Positions 5,767-12,603 of a stretch of DNA of 12,603 nucleotides are shown here, piece after piece. The stretch spans positions 1 to 12,603 of the forward strand of contig DAHVAE010000017.1 in NCBI GenBank assembly GCA_027314795.1, in the 5' to 3' direction. Below the pieces are notes generated by a model, which was given only the letters and a program-made list of their open reading frames with translations, was not told the DNA's origin and did not search any database. Position 1 is the stretch's first letter, and every line of letters starts with the position of its first letter. The stretch is from Candidatus Saccharimonadota bacterium (GTDB taxonomy: Bacteria; Patescibacteriota; Saccharimonadia; Saccharimonadales; UBA4665). The position numbers and the translations under genes are program-made.

Positions 5767-6648
5767 ATGACAACGGGTGAACTAGTCGAACCAAAAAGCT
5801 CATTTGCTGACATTACCCCCGTGTCATTTCCTTATGCGGTAGCAAGTCTCGGACGGGCAGCATACACTTTATTTGTGACACCAGAGCACGAAAAATTACA
5901 CGCAGAATTGGAATACATGTGTCTAGGCGGCCCGTACCAGCCCATGCAGCCATCAATTAGTGAGTTAACGCAACGTATAGCTAAAGGCGTACTACCAAAA
6001 TACGACATAGACCGGCCGCCAACAACTGATAGTGGCAGACTTTTTCTCTTGGGCGGTATACTCATACAATTCTGTGACTATATTCCAAAAATGCGCGGTA
6101 CTATCAATTTGCAATACAGCCAGATAAAAGAACTTCACCAGGAAGTCGTAACCCATGCAGCAAATACGCAACCGCTTGATTTTGCCGAACAGCTAGACCT
6201 TGCGCTTGAGCAGGGTGGAGGCAACCTTACCGAATCGATGTGGCGTTTATTCATATGTTCTCGTCTTTACGCTCGTTGGCTAGATAGCAAAATCATGAAT
6301 GGCACTCCAGAGATGTTAAAAGAAGATAAACTAGCTGATATGCTGGCTTGGCGAGGTGCAATTGCGGCCTGCAAAGAGCCTAGTCCTTCACTGGCACAAG
6401 ACCCAAACGGAGACAACTATTATGCTTGGACTCATGGATTGGCAAAGGTAGCATATACGCTAGTACCAAAAGCTGAGACGACCGCCACACGTGCCACTGT
6501 CCGAACGTTTGAACAGGGCACCCATCTTATGCACAAGTTAGTCCATTCGTTTAATAAACAGGGTATAGTTAGCAATCACGACGTGGCGGCTGAATACGGT
6601 AATGCCATTGGTCAGACGATTGTCGCTACAGTGAAGCAGGCAGCCTAG
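5767..6648 (+). CDS. Hypothetical protein, 293 residues
   Basis: I do not recognise this protein. It is mostly soluble and apparently alpha-helical, without a signal peptide, clear membrane helix or catalytic motif. A proline-rich stretch (about 60-85, with YQPMQPSISEL and DIDRPPTTD) separates the N-terminal helices from the rest. A C-terminal region with DNYYAWTHGLAKVAYTLVP suggests a repeat of the earlier FPYAVASLGRAAYTLFV, so the protein may contain two related helical units; this similarity is by eye. The ATG at 5767 is preceded by AT-rich DNA without a Shine-Dalgarno sequence. It is divergent from the methyltransferase operon, stands alone, and marks the left border of the accessory region. 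Intact frame of good length, so likely a real gene. Confidence 0.75.
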   Translation: MTTGELVEPKSSFADITPVSFPYAVASLGRAAYTLFVTPEHEKLHAELEYMCLGGPYQPMQPSISELTQRIAKGVLPKYDIDRPPTTDSGRLFLLGGILIQFCDYIPKMRGTINLQYSQIKELHQEVVTHAANTQPLDFAEQLDLALEQGGGNLTESMWRLFICSRLYARWLDSKIMNGTPEMLKEDKLADMLAWRGAIAACKEPSPSLAQDPNGDNYYAWTHGLAKVAYTLVPKAETTATRATVRTFEQGTHLMHKLVHSFNKQGIVSNHDVAAEYGNAIGQTIVATVKQAA

Positions 6649-6754: not shown

Positions 6755-6793
6755 TAGAGGGCCGCAGTGTTAGCTCTATCAACTAATGTAGCG
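6755..6793 (+). repeat. Decayed copy of the WRAIV cassette-boundary repeat
   Basis: By eye this segment matches the copy at 9518 at 24 of 39 positions without gaps, including AGGGCC and CAACTAA. Its first codon is TAG where good copies have TGG. In the same frame it reads RAAVLALSTNV, against WRAIVYAVATKI in the good copy. It lies between the 293-residue gene and the first toxin-antitoxin pair, that is, at a module boundary. The rest of 6649-6838 shows no gene. A decayed member of the repeat family is the best explanation; chance is possible. Confidence 0.5.
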
Positions 6794-6803
6794 AATAATA
6801 CTA

Positions 6804-6832
6804 TTGCGTGGAGCACGTAAGTTTGCTATACT
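6804..6832 (+). promoter_or_regulatory. Promoter of the RHH-PIN toxin-antitoxin pair, leaderless
   Basis: TTGCGT (6804-6809), a 17-base spacer and the extended -10 TGC-TATACT (6824-6832). Only six bases separate TATACT from the ATG at 6839, so transcription should begin at about the A of the start codon. The hexamer TAAGTT occurs at 6818-6823 and again at 6833-6838, flanking the -10, with an inverted ACTTA between them. These are candidate operator half-sites for the RHH antitoxin. Confidence 0.65.
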
Positions 6833-6838
6833 TAAGTT

Positions 6839-7072
6839 ATGACGCGAAATCTTACAATCCAATTGGACGAAAACACCATAAAAAAAGCACGTATAGTAGC
6901 GACTAGGCGCTCTATATCACTTAGCAGACTAGTGAGTGACGAGATTAGCAAAGCTGCAGAGGCTGAAGATTATTGGTTGACAGCTAAAAGAACAGCCCTG
7001 AGTCAGCTAAATAACCCCTTTCATTTAGGAGGAAATAAGTTACCTACTAGAGAGAGTTTATACGATAGATGA
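6839..7072 (+). CDS. Ribbon-helix-helix antitoxin (VapB-like)
   Basis: This 77-residue protein begins with the RHH pattern: a strand (RNLTIQLDENTI), then two helices (KKARIVATRRS and SLSRLVSDEISKAA). The hydrophobic LTIQL strand would insert in the DNA major groove as a dimer. The C-terminal tail after residue 45 should wrap around the partner toxin (family knowledge). Its stop overlaps the start of the PIN toxin by four bases (ATGA), typical of an antitoxin-first TA operon. It probably represses its own promoter, which carries repeated TAAGTT hexamers. RHH fold confident. Confidence 0.82.
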   Translation: MTRNLTIQLDENTIKKARIVATRRSISLSRLVSDEISKAAEAEDYWLTAKRTALSQLNNPFHLGGNKLPTRESLYDR

Positions 7073-7485
7073 ATCTTATCTTCATAGACACTAATGTGTT
7101 AGTCTATGCATTTGACGCCGATGCTGGGTCTAAGTTTGATAAGGCGCAGGCTATACTAAAAGATTGTTGGGGTAACCAATCTGGTTCTTTAAGTACGCAA
7201 GTACTTCAGGAATTTTACGTAACCGTAACCAAAAAGTTAACTCATAAAGTAGATAAGCAATCTGCTCGAAATATAGTCCAGGTTTATAAAGCTTGGTCGG
7301 TACATCAAATAACACCAGAGGATATACTTGATGCATCTGAATTTGAAGAACAAAATAAATTGTCGTTTTGGGACTCTCTTATAGTGATTGCCGCCCAAAA
7401 AAAAGGTGCCGATACTTTATATAGTGAAGATATGCAAGATGGCCAAAAGTTTGGAAGCTTAACCGTAGTTAACCCTTTCAAATAA
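7069..7485 (+). CDS. PIN-domain toxin ribonuclease (VapC-like)
   Basis: This 138-residue PIN domain retains the acidic residues that bind Mg2+ for RNA cleavage: D7 in FIDTNVLVY, E48 in QVLQEFYV, D102 in SFWDSLIVIAA and the E120-D121 pair in YSEDMQDG. VapC toxins cut initiator tRNA or other stable RNAs; the target here is unknown. Translation is coupled to the RHH antitoxin by a 4-base overlap. The intact acidic set suggests an active enzyme. Confidence 0.88.
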   Translation: MNLIFIDTNVLVYAFDADAGSKFDKAQAILKDCWGNQSGSLSTQVLQEFYVTVTKKLTHKVDKQSARNIVQVYKAWSVHQITPEDILDASEFEEQNKLSFWDSLIVIAAQKKGADTLYSEDMQDGQKFGSLTVVNPFK

Positions 7486-7575
7486 ACATTAGTATATTGG
7501 AGGACGTGTCAGGTAATGATGTGTGCCCCCACTTATTACACGATAATCAGCCACATATTGCTTCGTTAAATCGGC

Positions 7576-7603
7576 TGTAGAGCTTGGATATTGTCGCTCT
7601 ACA
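7576..7603 (+). repeat. Inverted repeat, 8-bp perfect stem
   Basis: TGTAGAGC (7576-7583) and GCTCTACA (7596-7603) form a perfect 8-bp stem with a 12-base loop, 18 bases upstream of the -35 box of the next TA operon. There is no following T tract, so an intrinsic terminator is unlikely. It could be an additional operator or a boundary structure. The surrounding gap (7486-7621) holds no gene. Confidence 0.5.
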
Positions 7604-7621
7604 AAGGCATAGCATAGTCTA

Positions 7622-7662
7622 TTGACTGAAGTTGACTTTCAATGTATACTGAATTTCAGTAT
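7622..7662 (+). promoter_or_regulatory. Promoter and palindromic operator of the AbrB-PIN pair
   Basis: TTGACT (7622-7627), exactly 17 bases, then TATACT (7645-7650). The ATG at 7661 follows ten bases after the -10, so the leader is about three bases or absent. A perfect inverted repeat, ATACTGAA-T-TTCAGTAT (7646-7662), covers most of the -10, the start site and the first two bases of the ATG. Bound repressor would block both polymerase and the start region. The AbrB-like antitoxin encoded here is the obvious candidate ligand (inference). Confidence 0.8.
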
Positions 7663-7930
7663 GAATAACACTACTAAATACATAAAGTCGTTCAGTAATG
7701 GGCAAGTTACTATACCTAAAGATATCAGGGATGTCCTTCGAATGGGAAATAATTTTTGGCTTAAAATATCTGTTGCCGAGGGCAGGATAATTGCTGAACC
7801 AATAGAAAATAACCAGGATAAAAAATCCTACAAACAATCTCTCCTTGACATAAAGGCTCCCCTAGATTTAAAGGAGCAAGTTAAAGCTAATAGAACTCAG
7901 GTGGAAAGACAGATAACAAATAGGATATGA
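7661..7930 (+). CDS. AbrB/MazE-like swapped-hairpin antitoxin
   Basis: This 89-residue protein carries an N-terminal AbrB/SpoVT domain: KSFSNGQVTIPKDIRDVLRM, the usual G-Q-V-T-I-P-K-x-I-R signature, followed by the strands FWLKISVAEGRIIAEP. The charged tail should neutralise the toxin. An upstream in-frame TTG at 7622 would add 13 residues, but it is also the first base of the -35 box. The ATG at 7661 lies immediately downstream of promoter and operator, so I chose it; the mRNA would be leaderless. The stop overlaps the downstream PIN gene by four bases. AbrB antitoxins are a known alternative partner for PIN toxins. Confidence 0.85.
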   Translation: MNNTTKYIKSFSNGQVTIPKDIRDVLRMGNNFWLKISVAEGRIIAEPIENNQDKKSYKQSLLDIKAPLDLKEQVKANRTQVERQITNRI

Positions 7931-8304
7931 GAAAGATAGTTGTTGATACTTCAATAATCATTGATTTTCTACGTCGAAAAGATAAAGTAAATTCTCTGCT
8001 ATATCATTTAGCAGAAGAAGATTTATCAGTATCAATCATTACGCACACTGAGCTTTATGCCGGTAAGAGTGTTTGGGAGCATAATGAACCCAAAGAGATA
8101 CTAGAGAAAGTATTATCTGGTATCTCCTTTATTCCCTTAGACAAAACAATATCTCAAAAAGCAGGATACATTAAGTCGTATACAAATATTTCTCTAATTG
8201 ATGCGGTCATAGCTGCTACAGCCCTCGTGCAGAATATGGAAGTCGCTACGCTTAATATTAAAGACTTTGAAAAAGTGAAAGCAATAAAAATCGTTAATGA
8301 CTAG
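7927..8304 (+). CDS. PIN-domain toxin ribonuclease (VapC-like), second copy
   Basis: A 125-residue PIN domain with the expected acidic set: D7 in VVDTSIIIDFL, E42 in THTELYAG, D92 in SLIDAVIAA and D113 in TLNIKDF. It is clearly a different lineage from the PIN protein at 7069: the TLNIKDF ending is shared by FitB/VapC-type toxins. It is coupled to the AbrB antitoxin by an ATGA overlap. Expected function is Mg2+-dependent cleavage of tRNA or another RNA, inhibiting growth until the antitoxin binds. Confidence 0.88.
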   Translation: MRKIVVDTSIIIDFLRRKDKVNSLLYHLAEEDLSVSIITHTELYAGKSVWEHNEPKEILEKVLSGISFIPLDKTISQKAGYIKSYTNISLIDAVIAATALVQNMEVATLNIKDFEKVKAIKIVND

Positions 8305-8379
8305 TCTTGCATAAAGATGTCGTAGTATTTAGGTAACTAAGAGTTATGTGCGCTGATTTGATATCAAGCATAGGGTTGC

Positions 8380-8418
8380 TGGAGTATCACCTTGAAGGAC
8401 ATCTCAACTAAAATTAAG
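8380..8418 (+). repeat. Decayed copy of the WRAIV cassette-boundary repeat
   Basis: Aligned without gaps, this segment matches the copy at 9518 at 25 of 39 positions, including TGGAG at the start and the 12-base run CAACTAAAATTA at the end. In the same frame it reads WSITLKDISTKIK, against WRAIVYAVATKIR. It sits between the AbrB-PIN pair and the YdeI fragment, again a module boundary. The remaining bases of the 8305-8422 gap show nothing else. Confidence 0.6.
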
Positions 8419-8422
8419 TTTG

Positions 8423-8551
8423 TTAATGAAGCTTTTGTCCCTTACTAGCAGCAGGATAGTCATAAGTGGCATCCCACCTGCCTTCTTGCTTAGCTGATTC
8501 AATTGCTGCTAGTCCTGCTTGTTGCATTTTACCAATTTTAATAACGTGCCA
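8423..8551 (-). pseudogene. YdeI/OmdA-family protein, internal fragment
   Basis: The minus-strand segment HVIKIGKMQQAGLAAIESAK followed by QEGRWDATYDYPAASK closely fits the conserved middle of the YdeI/OmpD-associated family (G-x-M-Q-P-A-G-L-x-x-I-E-x-A-K-x-D-G-R-W-D-x-A-Y-D). Family proteins have about 100 residues before this point and 50 or more after it; both are missing. On the upstream side the frame runs into the IS hairpin at 8555-8580, and on the downstream side it stops seven residues after the motif, close to a repeat copy. It is a remnant with no expected function. Confidence 0.65.
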
Positions 8552-8554
8552 GAA

Positions 8555-8580
8555 ATCCCCGGGCTTTTTAGCCCGGGGAT
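8555..8580. repeat. GC-rich hairpin, probable IS200/IS605 end
   Basis: ATCCCCGGGCT and AGCCCGGGGAT form a perfect 11-bp stem with a TTTT loop, followed by GAATGG. It is strikingly GC-rich for this DNA. It lies 64 bases upstream of the tnpA remnant on the same strand, where IS200/IS605 elements keep the subterminal hairpin that TnpA recognises. It could also be a stand-alone REP-like sequence or terminator, but the tnpA next to it favours the IS end. Confidence 0.65.
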
Positions 8581-8644
8581 GAATGGCTCCCTGGAGTAGA
8601 TACAAAGTCTTGTATATACGAAAGCAATCCAGCATGCTTGATGC

Positions 8645-8824
8645 ATGGTCAAGGAGTATAGTGTTGGAGCCCATACGACCCACAAGTTGCAGTATTATCT
8701 TGTTTGGGTTCCCAACGTACCGGAACGAGTATTACAAGGCCCATTGGCGGGGAGACTGTACTAGCTACTACGTCAATGTGCCGAGATGAACGAATGGCAC
8801 ATAGAAGAACTCAATGGTCTTTAA
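8645..8824 (+). pseudogene. tnpA: IS200/IS605 TnpA (Y1 transposase) remnant
   Basis: Starting at an ATG, the frame reads MVKEYSVGAHTTHKLQYYLV followed by WVPNVPERVLQGPLAGRLY, the N-terminus of the HUH Y1 transposase family (usual form: HTVxxLxYHLVWVPKYRxxVLxG). A TAG at 8762 interrupts it. The same frame then continues LLRQCAEMNEWHIEELN and ends shortly before the point where the catalytic PDHVHL (HUH) motif should begin. The remnant is thus about 58 of 130-150 residues, without the HUH motif or catalytic tyrosine, and cannot transpose. Its end overlaps the stop of the relE-like gene by a few bases, so the element was cut where that cassette begins. These elements transpose as single strands without target duplications. 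Confidence 0.8.
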
Positions 8825-9081
8825 CCGTATAGCTGACTATGTGTGCCAATAAGTGCAAAAATTATTAATTCTTCACCACGTTTAAGATACAATGCCCTTA
8901 TATCACCGCTAACATCCATGCTCCAATGCCCAGCAAATTTACCTTTAAGTGGATGAACTCTGAGTTTTGGATTAGTGGAGTCAACAACAAATAGTTTAAC
9001 TCGCTCATCAAATTGATTCTGAAACTTTGTAGGCAATTTCTTATATTGCTTCTTAAATTTCAACATGTATTGAATAGTCAT
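8821..9081 (-). CDS. RelE/YafQ-family mRNA interferase toxin
   Basis: This 86-residue protein shows the RelE-family pattern: YMLKFKKQYKKLP at the N-terminus, LRVHPLKGKFAGHWSMDV in the centre, then DIRALYL (R62) and IGTHSQLYG (H81, Y85) at the end. The basic and aromatic residues in these last motifs normally position mRNA in the ribosomal A site for cleavage. The C-terminal ending is standard, so the protein is full length. It follows the RelB/DinJ antitoxin gene by five bases on the minus strand. Likely an active growth inhibitor controlled by its partner. Confidence 0.88.
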   Translation of the reverse strand: MTIQYMLKFKKQYKKLPTKFQNQFDERVKLFVVDSTNPKLRVHPLKGKFAGHWSMDVSGDIRALYLKRGEELIIFALIGTHSQLYG

Positions 9082-9086
9082 GAAAC

Positions 9087-9359
9087 CTATCTTTTAAGGT
9101 CCGCGAGAAAGTCTTCTACGTTATCGAACTCTTTACTAACTTTGCCTGCTTTCAACCCTTCCTCAACCTCAGCTATGAGTTTTTCTAGCTTTGGAGTCAT
9201 AGGCTCAGGGGCATAAAGTTCAATTCTGCGTGTAGCTACAACCTGTCGAAGATAAGCATTAACTAAAGTACTGAGAGTTAATCCTACGCTTTTAGCAATA
9301 TCCTGGGCAGAGGTTTTAACATCCTGGTCTAATCTTACACTTATAACTGTTGTGCTCAT
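9087..9359 (-). CDS. RelB/DinJ-type antitoxin
   Basis: A 90-residue antitoxin with an N-terminal RHH domain (TTVISVRLDQDVKTSAQDIA, then SVGLTLSTLVNAYLRQVV), the RelB/DinJ arrangement, and an acidic helical tail (LEKLIAEVEEGLKAGKVSKE) that should wrap around RelE. It is the first gene of the relBE-type operon. Its promoter has near-perfect boxes and an inverted repeat in the spacer, so autorepression is likely. The ATG is seven bases from the -10, so the mRNA is predicted to be leaderless. Confidence 0.87.
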   Translation of the reverse strand: MSTTVISVRLDQDVKTSAQDIAKSVGLTLSTLVNAYLRQVVATRRIELYAPEPMTPKLEKLIAEVEEGLKAGKVSKEFDNVEDFLADLKR

Positions 9360-9366
9360 ACTACAA

Positions 9367-9396
9367 ATTATATACCTGGTAGGTATTCAATGTCAA
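9367..9396 (-). promoter_or_regulatory. Consensus promoter with operator for the relBE-like operon
   Basis: On the minus strand a perfect TTGACA (-35, 9391-9396), an 18-base spacer and a perfect TATAAT (-10, 9367-9372). The ATG follows seven bases later. The spacer contains ATACCT-ACC-AGGTAT (9372-9386), an inverted repeat with 6-bp arms that would bring a bound RHH dimer into direct competition with polymerase. Confidence 0.82.
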
Positions 9397-9447
9397 TAGT
9401 GTGACTTAGAAAGTTGAGTTCTTTAACAGATATAGAACAATCGTTTA

Positions 9448-9485
9448 ATGAACCTATCGTTAGGTATGCAACTAAAATTCTAAAA
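9448..9485 (+). repeat. Decayed, tandem copy of the WRAIV repeat
   Basis: This segment shares ATCGT and the 12 bases GCAACTAAAATT with the good copy 71-74 bases downstream, with one codon fewer between the two blocks. In frame it reads NEPIVRYATKILK, against WRAIVYAVATKIR. It contains GTTAGGT (9459-9465), which fits the integron GTTRRRY core box, but no partner box is visible. Confidence 0.5.
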
Positions 9486-9517
9486 TTGTTATCCTACAAA
9501 GTGTTGTGAATAATATT

Positions 9518-9556
9518 TGGAGGGCCATCGTGTATGCTGTTGCAACTAAAATTAGA
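9518..9556 (+). repeat. WRAIV cassette-boundary repeat, copy 1
   Basis: Begins with the invariant TGGAGGGCCATCGT. From TGG it translates as WRAIVYAVATKIR, then runs on to a TAG after 12 more residues. GGAGG lies six bases before a GTG in the same frame, so it could also be read as a ribosome-binding site and a 20-residue ORF. It sits between the relBE-like pair (its promoter points away) and the 3' end of the VOC-like pseudogene. Confidence 0.85.
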
Positions 9557-9562
9557 TGTAAG

Positions 9563-9845
9563 TTAAATAGTTCGACCCATGTAGTATCTTAGTTGATAGC
9601 CGTCAGGGTTTAATATATAAACGTCCATTGAGTAGCCAAATAAATCAATTGTCTCTTCAAAATATTGTTTTTGCTTCGGCTAAGAGAGCTGCCTGTTCTT
9701 CGCAAACTGCATCCACTGCATAATTTAGTGTTTTTCCACCTTCTGACCAACCGAATATTGCCCAAGTACCTAGAAAATTAGGTACACTTGGCCATTCATC
9801 ATAATGGTCAGGGCTTATCGTTGGATTTTCAAAACTAAATAAGGT
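9563..9845 (-). pseudogene. VOC-like protein remnant, frameshifted
   Basis: Two overlapping minus-strand frames join into one protein-like sequence. The first has PTISPDHYDEWPSVPNFLGT, then WAIFGWSEGGKTLNYAVDAV. The second has QYFEETIDLFGYSMDVYILN and PDGYQLRYYMGRTI. The NPDGYQLRYY ending resembles the last strand of glyoxalase/VOC proteins (DPDGYxLxL). The frame changes by one base near 9660-9675. An in-frame TAA precedes the first part and no start codon is visible, so the 5' end is also lost. Domain assignment is moderate; that it is a decayed gene is clearer. Confidence 0.55.
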
Positions 9846-9923
9846 TTAAGGAAATGTCGGCTTAAGCTCACGCTCTATCATGGTCGTAGGGTCATTTTAC
9901 GCCGACAACTATTTAAACAAAAG

Positions 9924-9936
9924 CATAACCGTTATG
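9924..9936. repeat. Perfect inverted repeat at the left edge of repeat copy 2
   Basis: CATAAC-C-GTTATG is a 13-base perfect palindrome whose last two bases are the first two of repeat copy 2. Copy 3 has a related flank (CATAAGCGGTATG) keeping four of six pairs. The conserved frame GCATAAnCGnTATGG suggests the recombining or repeated unit may extend about 12 bases left in these two copies. Confidence 0.5.
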
Positions 9937-9973
9937 GAGGGCCATCGTAGACGTTATCGCAACTCACATCACG
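9935..9973 (+). repeat. WRAIV cassette-boundary repeat, copy 2
   Basis: Has the invariant 14-base start and reads WRAIVDVIATHITT followed by TAA. It is the most diverged of the five good copies at the DNA level (GACGTTATC where others have GATGCTGTT), yet the hydrophobic pattern is kept. The codon at the GTG position is GTA. It lies just 3' of the PIN toxin gene. About 85 bases between it and the VOC-like remnant hold a GTCGGC...GCCGAC stem (9856-9906) with a long loop and no gene. Confidence 0.85.
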
Positions 9974-9982
9974 ACTTAATGA

Positions 9983-10387
9983 TTACTTTTGAGCATCAAG
10001 TGTGTGTAGGCCAACAATAGTAGACTTTAAGATATTGGAATCGCTAGTTACTAGTGTCATATGCTTGGCTACTGCTTGCGCGATAAGAGCAGCATCAAAA
10101 GGGTCCGTCCATGATAATTCAGGTAGTTTAATATAATGTTCTGCCACCCATGCATCAAAAGCAATTTGTTGAATATTAGCATCTTCTAATAAAGCATCAA
10201 CTTGTGAAAAATCTATAGAGAACTTAAGTTTGCCCATTCGGATTTTAATTGCACACTCCAGTAGTGAGACACTAGAAACGTATACTTGATTAGCATTACT
10301 ACTAATGTCGGTCAGTGCACGCCTGCCTAATTTATCAGTATTTGTAAGAGACCAAATAAATGCATTAGTGTCCAGCAGTAAAATCAT
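9983..10387 (-). CDS. PIN-domain toxin (VapC-like) of the Phd-PIN pair
   Basis: This 134-residue PIN domain has D6 in LLLDTNAFIW, E44 in SSVSLLECAI, D98 (with D95) in TDPFDAALIAQA and D116 in LVTSDSNI: the complete Mg2+-binding acidic set. The LLDTNAFIW start and DPFDAALIAQA block are typical of PIN toxins paired with Phd/YefM antitoxins. It lies three bases after the antitoxin gene. It is the third PIN toxin in the window and belongs to yet another subgroup. Its target RNA is unknown. Confidence 0.9.
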   Translation of the reverse strand: MILLLDTNAFIWSLTNTDKLGRRALTDISSNANQVYVSSVSLLECAIKIRMGKLKFSIDFSQVDALLEDANIQQIAFDAWVAEHYIKLPELSWTDPFDAALIAQAVAKHMTLVTSDSNILKSTIVGLHTLDAQK

Positions 10388-10390
10388 ATG

Positions 10391-10633
10391 TCACTTTTTG
10401 TTAGCAACGGTATTCCAAAGATCAGTCATTGGCTCATCAAAATCATCACTTATCCAGACTTTACCTTTTAACATGCCAAGTTTTCGGGATTTATTAGTGG
10501 CATTGGGTAAAGCTACGATCTTAGCAACAGCCCTGCCGTGCTTACCGAGTAATATTTCTTTACCACCTATAACCTGCTCTAGATATTTAGAGTAATTTGT
10601 CTTTAAGTCATGGACGTTAATAACTGTATTCAT
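10391..10633 (-). CDS. Phd/YefM-type antitoxin
   Basis: An 80-residue protein with the Phd/YefM N-terminal fold: VINVHDLKTNYSKYLEQVIG, then GKEILLGKHGRAVAKIVAL, where the G-R-A-V-A-K-I strand is diagnostic. The C-terminal residues (KGKVWISDDFDEPMTDLW) form the toxin-binding tail, and the P-M-x-D-L-W ending is common in Phd partners of PIN toxins. First gene of the operon. An operator-like palindrome lies in its promoter spacer, matching the conditional autorepression known for this family. The ATG is six bases from the -10. Confidence 0.9.
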   Translation of the reverse strand: MNTVINVHDLKTNYSKYLEQVIGGKEILLGKHGRAVAKIVALPNATNKSRKLGMLKGKVWISDDFDEPMTDLWNTVANKK

Positions 10634-10639
10634 AAAAAA

Positions 10640-10668
10640 ATAATAGCAAATAAGACTAAGTTAGTCAA
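10640..10668 (-). promoter_or_regulatory. Promoter with palindromic operator for the Phd-PIN pair
   Basis: On the minus strand TTGACT (10663-10668), 17 bases, then an extended -10 TGC-TATTAT (TATTAT at 10640-10645). The ATG follows after six T bases, predicting a leaderless transcript. The spacer contains GACTAA-G-TTAGTC (10654-10666), a perfect 13-base palindrome overlapping the -35. It is a likely binding site for the Phd dimer. Confidence 0.8.
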
Positions 10669-10712
10669 CTATAGAAATACGCCTCAGCAAAAGAGTTTAG
10701 GCATAAGCGGTA

Positions 10713-10770
10713 TGGAGGGCCATCGTGCATGCTGTTGCGTCCAAAATACAAGCAAGTAGAAATCTTCACA
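10713..10770 (+). repeat. WRAIV cassette-boundary repeat, copy 3 (long form)
   Basis: Starts with the invariant 14 bases and reads WRAIVHAVASKIQASRNLHI before a TAA at 10784-10786. Similarity to copy 4 continues for about 58 bases, beyond the 39-base core, through AATCTTCA. A GGAGG-6-GTG arrangement would also allow a 20-residue ORF. It separates the Phd-PIN cassette from the plus-strand 209-residue gene, whose start lies directly after it. Confidence 0.87.
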
Positions 10771-10791
10771 TAATCACTATTGGCTAAAGTT

Positions 10792-11421
10792 ATGGGTATA
10801 TCTACTGTTATTTATTATCCTTGCAATATAAATTTGGTAAGTGCAAAATATCTACATATAAAAGAAGGGGTCTTTGTGCCACGGAATAATTTATTTGAAA
10901 CATTAGGAACGATGGTGGATATGCAAAGACATTTTACCGGTCCAACATTAGTTGAACTGCGTGACGGAGACATCCCCAACCCTAGAGATCGAATCGAAAA
11001 GATTGCAGTAAACTGGGCAAATAATAACGGTATGTCTAGCATGGGAGGAAATTCCAATATATTCGTAAAGGAAAAAGGACGAATTAAGACGCTGAATATG
11101 AGTGGTGTAACAGCTCATTACTTACGCTCATCAGATCAAGATCACGGTAGTTTTGTAGTGGCAATGTACCCATTTGGAATTGAAGCTGTAACTGACAGAA
11201 GGCAACCTATTTTTCAAGACCCTAGTACCTCAAGAATGAGAGCAGTGGTCTTAGAATTACCGCTAGCTGATCGTGAGTTACACTGGCTGCAAAAGCCCGT
11301 AGAGCCATTATTTAACATTGACGAAGATGGCACTGTCCTTGCTAGATTCAGTGAGCAACCAACTCCAACTGAATTACAATTACTCCAAGATATACTTGAA
11401 CAATTTGAAGTAAATAGCTAG
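10792..11421 (+). CDS. Hypothetical protein, 209 residues
   Basis: I do not recognise this protein. It has no signal peptide or membrane helix. Notable segments are GISTVIYYPCNINLVSAKYL, a polar glycine-rich stretch (NNNGMSSMGGNSNIF, about 80-95) and an acidic C-terminal helix (PTPTELQLLQDILEQFEV). Composition and frame are those of a real folded protein. I chose the ATG at 10792; an in-frame TTG at 10780 would add four residues. A CATAAT box at 10769-10774, inside the extended repeat, could be the -10, giving a leader of about ten bases. It is the only complete non-TA gene of the array on the plus strand and fills one whole interval between repeat copies 3 and 4. Nothing suggests a TA partner. 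Confidence 0.75.
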   Translation: MGISTVIYYPCNINLVSAKYLHIKEGVFVPRNNLFETLGTMVDMQRHFTGPTLVELRDGDIPNPRDRIEKIAVNWANNNGMSSMGGNSNIFVKEKGRIKTLNMSGVTAHYLRSSDQDHGSFVVAMYPFGIEAVTDRRQPIFQDPSTSRMRAVVLELPLADRELHWLQKPVEPLFNIDEDGTVLARFSEQPTPTELQLLQDILEQFEVNS

Positions 11422-11451
11422 ATTACAATTACTAACAGATAAAATCACTGG

Positions 11452-11457
11452 TATAAT
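11452..11457 (+). promoter_or_regulatory. Possible extended -10 box abutting repeat copy 4
   Basis: TGG-TATAAT is a perfect extended -10 whose last base is the first of repeat copy 4. A transcript from here would begin inside the repeat. The -35 position (TTACTA) matches only weakly. No plus-strand gene follows before 12502, so if real it would make a short RNA carrying the repeat. Treat as speculative. Confidence 0.3.
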
Positions 11458-11514
11458 GGAGGGCCATCGTAGATGCTGTTGCGTCGAAAATTCAAGTAAG
11501 TAGCAATCTTCATG
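11457..11514 (+). repeat. WRAIV cassette-boundary repeat, copy 4 (long form)
   Basis: Invariant 14-base start, then WRAIVDAVASKIQVSSNLHV; TAA follows four residues later. It is closest to copy 3: differences such as GCA/GTA, CAC/CAT and ATA/GTA leave a conservative peptide. The codon at the possible GTG start is GTA, so the small-ORF reading fails in this copy. It lies 3' of the minus-strand 112-residue gene and 3' of the plus-strand 209-residue gene. The rest of 11422-11556 shows only a loose ATTAATG...CATTAAT inverted repeat. Confidence 0.87.
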
Positions 11515-11556
11515 TAGCCCTGTTTAATTAATGGAAATCACCAGCTAGATCACACA

Positions 11557-11895
11557 TTAATTATTGGGTATACCGGGGTATAGTCTGGCAAGTGATATAC
11601 GCATAACTTCTGCTGCATCATTAACAGATAATCCTTGTGCTACTAAACCTTCAATCCACACAGTACCAACACTCAAACCGGCCATAACAGCATAATATTG
11701 TTCAGGAGTGTCTAATGCTAACCCAAACTTCTCAACAATAGTGTTTCGCACAAAAGCTGATGCCTGGTCATAATATCCCGTAAATGTAGGCTCTGAATTC
11801 GAGTTTTCTACATAGTGACTCACAAAGCCCTCTAAGATACTTGATTGGCTGAGAGTTAATCTACTGGGTTCCTGTTCGCCTGATGCATGACCCAT
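11557..11895 (-). CDS. Hypothetical protein, 112 residues, paired with GGCT-like gene
   Basis: I do not recognise this protein. It appears soluble and helical, with a polar N-terminus and a hydrophobic C-terminal half (YYAVMAGLSVGTVWIEGLVA, then NDAAEVMRISLARLYPGIP). Its ATG is preceded by a clear Shine-Dalgarno sequence AAGGAG nine bases upstream, and it starts 21 bases after the stop of the gamma-glutamylcyclotransferase-like gene, so the two form an operon. This is the clearest SD of the window and belongs to an internal cistron, whereas first genes of operons lack one. A small partner of an amine- or glutamyl-active enzyme is conceivable, but only by position. Confidence 0.72.
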   Translation of the reverse strand: MGHASGEQEPSRLTLSQSSILEGFVSHYVENSNSEPTFTGYYDQASAFVRNTIVEKFGLALDTPEQYYAVMAGLSVGTVWIEGLVAQGLSVNDAAEVMRISLARLYPGIPNN

Positions 11896-11903
11896 ATTGC
11901 TAC

Positions 11904-11910
11904 TCTCCTT
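11904..11910 (-). promoter_or_regulatory. Ribosome binding site of the 112-residue gene
   Basis: Minus-strand AAGGAGA, with its AAGGAG core nine bases before the ATG at 11895. It fixes that start and shows that the host uses Shine-Dalgarno initiation for internal cistrons although operon-leading genes here appear leaderless. Confidence 0.75.
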
Positions 11911-11916
11911 AAGAAA

Positions 11917-12462
11917 TTAATTCGAGGTGTTAGTTCGTTCATCGAACTCATGTCTGGCTTTAGCAGCTACAGCTTCAAACTGTTCAACTGGATTTAACCA
12001 CGTCTCGTAGTCAGAACCGTCAACATCTTGGATTACAGCCTGATTATCGCCTAGCTGTTCTGTGATTATTGGAATATGTTGACCATCGGTTGTCACTGCA
12101 ACACCTTTAGTATCTTTATACCAGCCAAAATCAATCAGTTCCCAATCTCTTACTCGTTCACGGTCATCTGTGGTTAATTCCCAGATAGTGCCTGATACAT
12201 GCCCATCAATAGATGGTGTAATAACGTAACTTCTGAAACTATCATCCCAACTTTCTCTTAACAAAGTTTGTGGTGATATCGGAGCGGGTGCACCATCTAA
12301 TACAGCATCTGGTACTTGGTCGATGCTCTGAATAGCCAAGCTAAAGCCCTCTAAAATACCAGGTTTGCCAACCAGCTCAGACACGAGCTTACCTGTAATA
12401 GCTGCTATCATTCGTGGATGACGATTTGCTCCATAACCAAAATATTGAACTGTTTCGCTCAT
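11917..12462 (-). CDS. Gamma-glutamylcyclotransferase/AIG2-like protein
   Basis: A 181-residue protein starting MSETVQYFGYGANRHPRMIA. The YFGYGAN motif matches the Y-G-S-N substrate loop of the GGCT-like fold. DWELIDFGWYK (106-116) supplies the expected catalytic glutamate, E108. A strand VSGTIWEL (89-96) precedes it, equivalent to V-x-G-x-x-Y/W-x-L in the family. Members cyclise gamma-glutamyl groups to 5-oxoproline or act on gamma-glutamylamines; substrate unknown here. The frame extends upstream to the window edge, but a promoter with its -10 nine bases before this ATG, and the family's usual N-terminus, fix the start. First gene of a two-gene operon lying between repeat copies 4 and 5. 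Confidence 0.75.
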   Translation of the reverse strand: MSETVQYFGYGANRHPRMIAAITGKLVSELVGKPGILEGFSLAIQSIDQVPDAVLDGAPAPISPQTLLRESWDDSFRSYVITPSIDGHVSGTIWELTTDDRERVRDWELIDFGWYKDTKGVAVTTDGQHIPIITEQLGDNQAVIQDVDGSDYETWLNPVEQFEAVAAKARHEFDERTNTSN

Positions 12463-12471
12463 AGAATCTAA

Positions 12472-12499
12472 ACTATAACATAAGTAGTATAAATTGCAA
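12472..12499 (-). promoter_or_regulatory. Promoter of the GGCT-like operon
   Basis: Minus-strand TTGCAA (12494-12499), a 16-base spacer and TATAGT (12472-12477), nine bases before the ATG. The -35 ends two bases from repeat copy 5, so the cassette carries its promoter right up to its boundary. The very short leader matches the other operons. Confidence 0.55.
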
Positions 12500-12501
12500 C
12501 T

Positions 12502-12540
12502 TGGAGGGCCATCGTGGAAGCTGTAGCAACCGAAATTAGG
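12502..12540 (+). repeat. WRAIV cassette-boundary repeat, copy 5
   Basis: Invariant 14-base start, then WRAIVEAVATEIRAS; the frame stays open for 11 more residues to a TAA. GGAGG-6-GTG is intact, giving a possible 22-residue ORF. The minus-strand gene at the window edge terminates inside the right end of this copy (its TAA is read from ATTAG of the repeat). It marks the boundary to the next module. Confidence 0.87.
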
Positions 12541-12603
12541 GCTTCTTCGCCTTTTCTTGCAACCAATTTGGCGTATCAATAAACCGGATTTCTTCCCAGC
12601 CAT
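12536..12603 (-). CDS. C-terminus of an unidentified protein (5' part outside window)
   Basis: The minus-strand frame entering at the right edge reads GWEEIRFIDTPNWLQEKAKK-P and stops with TAA. The sequence looks like a genuine soluble protein tail, and the segment also has a promoter-free, uninterrupted frame, but 21 residues do not identify a family. Its stop codon lies within repeat copy 5, so the repeat follows immediately at its 3' end, as it does for other minus-strand genes of the array. The competing frame (ATG at 12603) runs through the repeat and an AT-rich promoter, which makes it unlikely. Confidence 0.55.
   Translation of the reverse strand, partial: GWEEIRFIDTPNWLQEKAKKP

Follow-up and report, generated by a model that had tools for sequence, protein, structure and literature searches.

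The stretch of DNA analyzed here (hereafter the window, 12,603 nucleotides) is the entire contig C10 of a Candidatus Saccharimonadota genome (G000 in our numbering; 681 kb, 101 contigs, 87% complete). Its right part is an array of small gene modules, or cassettes, separated by a short direct repeat. The 14-base element of this repeat, TGGAGGGCCATCGT (the core), occurs five times exactly, each time on the + strand; a preliminary description of the window had reported these five copies with spacings of 417, 778, 744 and 1045 bases, and both copies and spacings were correct. Allowing three mismatches yielded no extra site in the window, and 200 shuffles of the window at this tolerance gave 0.56 matches on average and 4 at most. 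The ∼36 bases after the first nine of the repeat (the arm) read as protein in one frame, namely WRAIVDAIATKI followed by a variable tail. The cargo of the window includes PIN toxin-like genes, YafQ/RelB and Phd/YefM (Table 1), and five scanned window proteins had no Pfam match (10780-11421, 11557-11895, 11917-12462, 8426-8683 and 5767-6648), the last of which sits just left of the array.

Decayed copies had also been proposed at 6755, 8380 and 9448. The first is genuine, as its in-frame reading agrees with the arms of two cassettes of homologous content (at L180:2112 and L189:9978; L numbers denote loci). The cassette that follows it has homologues at L180:2149-2582 (75%) and at oriented L189:6067-6276 (76%). 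The copy at 8380 is plausible and the one at 9448 weak. The related claim that nearly every module junction carries a copy held from 9.5 kb rightward and more loosely on the left side. The segment TGGAGGACGTGTCAG at 7498-7512, between two PIN modules, may be another decayed core.

Table 1. Predicted features of the array in the window (sites as core plus arm).
Feature	Position	Strand	Basis
Decayed attachment site, core TAGAGGGCC + arm; starts DUF6364/PIN cassette	6755..6815	+	reads stop-RAAVLALSTN...
Cargo: DUF6364 antitoxin-like and PIN-domain toxin-like proteins	6839..7485	+	Pfam PF19891, PF01850
Cargo: MazE-like (under Pfam cut-off) and PIN-domain protein	7622..8304	+	Pfam PF04014, PF01850
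Probable decayed attachment site, reads WSITLKDISTKIK	8380..8419	+	nhmmer E 0.44 over arm
Cargo: YafQ toxin-like and RelB antitoxin-like pair	8821..9359	-	Pfam PF15738, PF04221
Possible attachment-site remnant, weak	9448..9490	+	nhmmer E 1.2 across 16 columns
Attachment site, core + coding arm WRAIVYAVATKI	9518..9560	+	exact core; nhmmer 2.5e-13
Attachment site, core + arm WRAIVDVIATHITT, then stop	9935..9977	+	exact core; nhmmer 2e-12
Cargo: PIN-domain toxin-like and Phd/YefM antitoxin-like	9983..10633	-	Pfam PF01850, PF02604
Attachment site, core + arm WRAIVHAVASKIQASRNLHIITIG, then stop	10713..10768	+	exact core; nhmmer 1.8e-11
Cargo: orphan 213-aa protein	10780..11421	+	ORF (open reading frame); Pfam none at E 0.01
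Attachment site, core + arm WRAIVDAVASKIQVSSNLHVALFN, then stop	11457..11512	+	exact core; nhmmer 8.3e-11
Cargo: two orphan proteins	11557..12462	-	ORFs; Pfam none at E 0.01
Attachment site, core + arm WRAIVEAVATEIRASSPFLATNLAYQ, then stop	12502..12546	+	exact core; nhmmer 2.7e-14

Among 392 sampled genomes of the same order, we found 66 exact copies of the core in 40 genomes and none of a reversed control pattern, and whenever several exact copies lay on one contig all were on the same strand. The rest of G000 held a single extra exact copy, on contig C19 (control, 0); with up to 3 mismatches there were 26 matches in G000 versus 27 for the control, so that degenerate copies elsewhere are not in excess. 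Exact-core matches listed from genome_contigs were mostly chance, judged by collection size. For locus analysis, 44 stretches around exact copies and the whole of C19 were retrieved; L201-L204, with four exact copies that had no arm behind the core, were left out before counting, and 62 copies in 36 genomes remained. A profile built from these 62 copies was used to find degenerate cores, and 137 positions in 42 loci entered the analysis, including window position 6755, added by hand, and a few tRNA ends themselves. Nine further array stretches (L328-L336) were retrieved later and are kept apart from the 42 loci.

The repeat begins with nine bases, TGGAGGGCC, that match the tRNA-Lys 3' end in reverse complement. 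A tRNA-Lys gene stood at the right end of the array in 28 of the 42 loci, its 3' end facing the array, and in the remaining 14, the window included, the contig end comes before any tRNA. ARAGORN detected 24 tRNA-Lys genes (CTT or TTT) in the loci as first retrieved, all on the strand opposite the cores and with the 3' end pointing to the array; 23 of them end in GGCCCTCCA, the complement of TGGAGGGCC, and the one in L198 has one base changed. Extension of L173, L183, L199 and L200 reached tRNA-Lys in all four, as did four of the nine later stretches (L329, L331, L332 and L336), the others (L328, L330 and L333-L335) being cut by the contig end. Thus, every uncut array examined ends at tRNA-Lys. 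In the uncut part of the alignment list, the regions past the tRNA align between genera. The tRNA-Lys gene of G000 lies on C19, 0.8 kb from the exact copy there, which suggests that contigs C10 and C19 adjoin; the random scatter of the element over the genome, for which the preliminary description had asked a check, was therefore not observed. Besides, gene pieces running off the contig ends (window:12536-12603 and L172:9501-9767) could be one gene, in which case C10 and C19 would be neighbours. The longest array, on contig 15 of G008, had about 21 cores (E <0.5) in about 16 kb before tRNA-Lys (9 in L199 and 13 in L326, one common to both).

On the other side of the core, a left-arm motif resembling a tRNA trailer was present at 36 of 132 cassette junctions and 6 of 24 tRNA junctions, compared with 3.6% of random array positions; most junctions therefore have another left arm. 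A few left-arm types, such as GTTACTGTGGTTATATATTACCAAAT and CTAATTCTTATCTGTTAGCAACTTT, recur ahead of several cores. A Xer/dif origin, suggested by the likeness of the left arm to a dif half-site, was set aside, since the motif is better read as a tRNA trailer plus terminator.

The arm showed clear signs of coding. In the first part of 127 non-redundant arms, frame 0 had 3 stops in 1016 codons, compared with 144 and 73 in the other forward frames. For 103 stricter arms, amino-acid similarity exceeded that of column shuffles with a z of 12.0 in frame 0, the five alternative frames giving 1.6-5.9, and in the tail region the values were 5.2 in frame 0 and at most 1.5 elsewhere; this test preserves column composition but not relatedness, which affects all frames equally. 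No recognisable gene ran into the copies of the window or of the fetched loci. The longest open frame over a copy was 162 amino acids in the fetched loci and 190 among the matches listed (67 of 92 genomes with a match at E 10), both judged unrelated by eye, and a host gene leading into the copies was dropped as an explanation. Nor did a search turn up any longer protein with an arm-like end. A reading of the arm as a small ORF, started from the core's GGAGG, was likewise rejected: GTA occupies the start position in 24 of the 62 copies, and the copies share no other start.

A candidate source of the reading frame was found at the anchor. In G145, a 557-amino-acid large serine recombinase lies against tRNA-Lys, in an 11-kb interval between the last core and the tRNA, and its last codons read WRA followed by RRDSNPRHPA, that is, the tRNA read antisense. 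This protein matched PF00239 above the cut-off and PF13408 and PF07508 slightly below theirs; the resolvase, recombinase and zinc-ribbon domains are all annotated (precomputed) in many listed homologues. The sole relative of solved structure found at E 0.001 was the A118 integrase, and the nearest curated models were XisF, CcrB and CcrC. Of 7993 candidates scored in a search of 5.8 billion proteins, at least 997 were homologous at E 1e-20, and the best 120 of these were used for all tallies of C-termini. By regular expression, 105 of the 120 end in WRA plus a tRNA-Lys-antisense-like peptide (P0111 fitting loosely only, P0065 and P0107 differing in the last part), nine stop at WRA or one residue beyond, four have WRA followed by another peptide and two a different ending; the W and R are conserved in at least 118. 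The C-termini of P0056, P0098 and P0115 match the cassette-arm profile with 33, 30 and 21 bits, and none of the remaining ones reaches 5 bits. These three matches identify the arm as an in-frame recombinase C-terminus, and since the usual tail is tRNA antisense the recombinase had escaped the host-gene search. Judged from these sequences, the attachment site lies within the 3' end of the recombinase gene, and each cassette would bring an in-frame replacement C-terminus.

Complete or nearly complete recombinases of this type (Lys-type) were found in G145, G352, G119, G017, G111 and G006 and fragments in G196 and G247, and all eight genes end in tRNA-Lys. In G119 and G111 too the recombinase lies against tRNA-Lys with the array cores on its far side. 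A core+arm copy marks the other end of the element in G145, G119, G111, G006 and G247 (the last a fragment), and in G017, G196 and G352 that end is lost to the contig end. The preliminary description had predicted a recombinase gene at one end of the array; this proved right for some related genomes and not for G000, in which none was found. Some relative of the recombinase at E 1e-10 was present in 206 of the 392 genomes: that of G178 ends in tRNA-Gln, that of G182 in tRNA-Trp and others in Pro, Glu, Ser and Arg tRNA genes, and those of G014, L319 and L322 do not end in any recognised tRNA. Several stretches at tRNA-Pro, Glu, Arg and Ser (L283, L284, L314-L316, L318, L320, L323 and L324) have two recombinases each, a serine recombinase gene ending antisense in the tRNA and a separate tyrosine recombinase some way off; L320 has a direct repeat, 12 bp long or more (19 as judged by eye), with one copy at 8349 and the other in tRNA-Ser at 15024.

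The presence of tyrosine recombinases raises the question of whether one of them, the host Xer or a member of a second family, moves the cassettes, with the serine recombinase merely sharing the tRNA-Lys target. A PF00589 protein (E 0.001) was indeed present in 361 of the 392 genomes, and the second family (E <1e-130) occurred in 8, of which 7 have exact cores; in G145, a member lies inside the same 11-kb element. We nevertheless consider this explanation improbable, as the second family occurs also near Pro, Glu, Ser and Arg tRNAs, ORFs in the 42 array loci gave no match at E 1 to a Xer-type profile of 30 proteins, and the coding arm is explained only by the reading frame of the serine recombinase. 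Moreover, G022 (97% complete) has an array and no PF00589 match at E 0.001. The array genomes G159, G209, G229 and G259 (73-94% complete) had no such match either, and hence no Xer was detected in these five. Two array genomes share genes near a tyrosine recombinase (L278:13132-14670 and L279:8751-10283) that we take, from their sequence, to be cytosine-methylase-like and Vsr-like.

Integrons, which capture single-gene cassettes via tyrosine recombinases acting on folded attC sites, were also considered. The reading as an integron, with IntI and attC cassettes, has in its favour that the cassettes are small, mostly hold one or two genes and share one orientation, that the array is anchored on one side, and that the window has toxin-antitoxin cargo. 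However, paired attC boxes were absent around six window sites (RYYYAAC in no flank, GTTRRRY near one only), and all five window sites submitted to folding folded no better than shuffles (z -0.8 to +0.8), in agreement with the preliminary description, which had seen neither boxes nor fold. The enzyme at the anchor belongs to the serine recombinases, two tyrosine recombinases from genomes with arrays scored 28-34 bits against TIGR02249 (cut-off 265), and G000 had no PF00589 match. With boxes, fold and recombinase all failing, this possibility was rejected and we give it practically no chance.

The 114 core-to-core units had a median length of 794 bp. Counting ORFs of at least 75 amino acids, genes are present in 105 units (one gene in 58, two in 29), and 140 of 190 cassette genes are co-oriented with the tRNA (p 5e-11). 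The cargo is diverse: among the 108 of 247 array-region proteins covered by the Pfam scan (ORFs of the same minimum length), 95 Pfam families (E 1e-4) and 36 PADLOC families (E 1e-5) were found. Several cassettes are shared. The window cassette at 9935 and one in G213, a genome of another genus, share 96% identity over 741 bp in a match that begins exactly at the core; a 98% match between G227 and G261 (same genus) begins at the core and runs up to the contig end, and another of 92% over 269 bp between G051 and G091 (different genera) also begins at the core. The YafQ/RelB cargo of the window has homologous stretches in L207, L209 and L179. Within arrays, 9 starts and 12 ends of 56 alignments of at least 200 bp lay no more than 12 bp from a core in one or both of the loci aligned, compared with means of 1.9 and 2.4 and maxima of 7 and 9 in 500 shuffles. 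When module boundaries were compared with the repeats in relatives, as the preliminary description had proposed, several homologous cassettes elsewhere began in register at the core. The exact repeat was absent from viral_contigs, plasmids gave no match and phages no more than chance-level ones (E 0.6) with a composite query, and no relative of the recombinase occurred in viral_contigs; a phage or plasmid origin was rejected on these grounds.

Ordinary accretion, in which independent integrative elements at a tRNA hot spot decay to remnants and no cassette is mobilised, has to be weighed against these data. tRNA genes are general integration hot spots, many cores are degenerate, and one array contains a fragment of a recombinase gene (L192:9324-9488), all of which accretion would explain. 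In contrast, the small size of the units, more than half of which (among those with genes) have one gene, the near-identical cassettes in different genera and the coding constraint that still acts on the arms are difficult to reconcile with it, and we regard accretion as an unlikely account of the arrays.

On the directly observed features (array structure and its conservation, the coding arm, its fusion to the recombinase, and shared cassettes starting at the core), we consider it very likely that a large serine recombinase drives the gene-cassette array, anchored at tRNA-Lys, of which the window contains a part. The lack of scattered copies, the core-registered shared cassettes and the recombinase in relatives support the site-specific gene-capture array proposed in the preliminary description, to which the origin of the core in the tRNA-Lys 3' end and the coding of a recombinase C-terminus by the arm are new additions. 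The proposed attachment site would consist of the tRNA-Lys 3' end (TGGAGGGCC on the opposite strand) followed by the ∼36-bp arm in each cassette. Autonomous elements (about 5.6-11.5 kb, in four genomes) have the recombinase at their tRNA end, its last codons crossing the core into the tRNA (tail, e.g., RRDSNPRHPA) or into the arm of the next cassette (tail, e.g., IVDAVAARI...). Non-autonomous cassettes consist of core, arm and mostly one or two cargo genes, with a tRNA-trailer-like right end in about a quarter. The recombinase may catalyse insertion and excision through a circular cassette: recombination of a core+arm circle with the tRNA-Lys end would restore the tRNA and place core and arm on the far side, which is the layout observed. 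New cassettes would then enter next to the tRNA, pushing older ones outward and giving the recombinase a new tail, as the arm tails of the three homologues described above suggest. Arms of recombinase-free cassettes may stay coding because a cassette landing behind the recombinase must not destroy the gene.

Several observations weigh against this interpretation or limit it. No movement of a cassette was seen. No recombinase relative was found in G000 or G180 at E 1e-10, a complete Lys-type gene is present in only 3 of the 36 array genomes (G145, G119 and G111), and G008, with the longest array, has just a distant relative; many array genomes are incomplete. Most arrays would therefore either need a recombinase in trans, perhaps supplied by a visiting element and acting on many arrays without a gene of their own, or be relics, and this is the main gap. 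Two unlike serine recombinases (L200 and L317) end in the Lys-type core in another frame. In L207, two further cores lie past the tRNA, which we read as the next array. Finally, 47 of the 56 alignment starts and 44 of the ends lie away from the core, many alignments starting about 40-57 bp inside, behind the arm, or stopping 30-120 bp before the next core; ahead of that core, where they stop, the left arms fall into few recurring types.

A more far-reaching possibility, which we put forward tentatively and with considerable doubt, is an independently evolved integron, based on a serine recombinase, in which each cassette that goes in behind the recombinase gene changes the C-terminus of this enzyme. 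Cassette order might then influence how active the recombinase is or in which direction it recombines, and sister recombinases might run parallel systems at Pro, Glu, Ser, Arg, Gln and Trp tRNAs. If the serine-recombinase array is what it appears to be, Saccharibacteria would have in it a mobile reservoir of genes. The recombinases would form a new site-specific serine family whose natural target is tRNA-Lys, and would offer a testable example of a protein that takes its C-terminus from the DNA last inserted behind its gene.

Some features of the system are shared with known ones. A118-type phage serine integrases are related proteins, but they serve one element per site at an unrelated target and are not known to form a cassette array. 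Like the present system, archaeal SSV-type viral integrases have attP within the integrase gene and a tRNA target; however, they are tyrosine recombinases, their gene is split upon integration, and they are not known to form arrays. Xer-driven plasmid dif modules are small toxin-antitoxin modules between short sites with a recombinase in trans; they use XerCD and dif sites and are not known to be anchored at a tRNA. Cassette chromosomes (SCC) of staphylococci and enterococci are similar in that large serine recombinases place elements in tandem where a conserved gene has its 3' end. They are large elements inserted at rlmH by Ccr serine recombinases. In contrast, the units described here are ∼0.8 kb long, lie at tRNA-Lys instead of the rlmH 3' end, number about 21 in the G008 array and have the recombinase's own 3' end as the site; three Lys-type recombinases scored 33-67 bits against the Ccr models (ccrA/B/C), whose cut-offs are 700-900. 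With integrons, the arrays share small, mostly one- or two-gene cassettes in one orientation, anchoring at a target site and diverse, toxin-antitoxin-bearing cargo. They differ in the serine instead of tyrosine recombinase, in a duplex, tRNA-derived core for which no attC fold was found, and in the replaceable recombinase C-terminus carried by the cassettes. No such array was described in the open literature searched, subscription journals being mostly outside that search. A stricter reading could place the system among the cassette chromosomes; we count it as a new kind, as no known kind that was found combines this enzyme class with such a site and with C-terminal exchange. Integron-shaped arrays with another kind of site are tied to a different enzyme class in a reduced bacterial lineage, and the system looks like an independently evolved counterpart of the integron.

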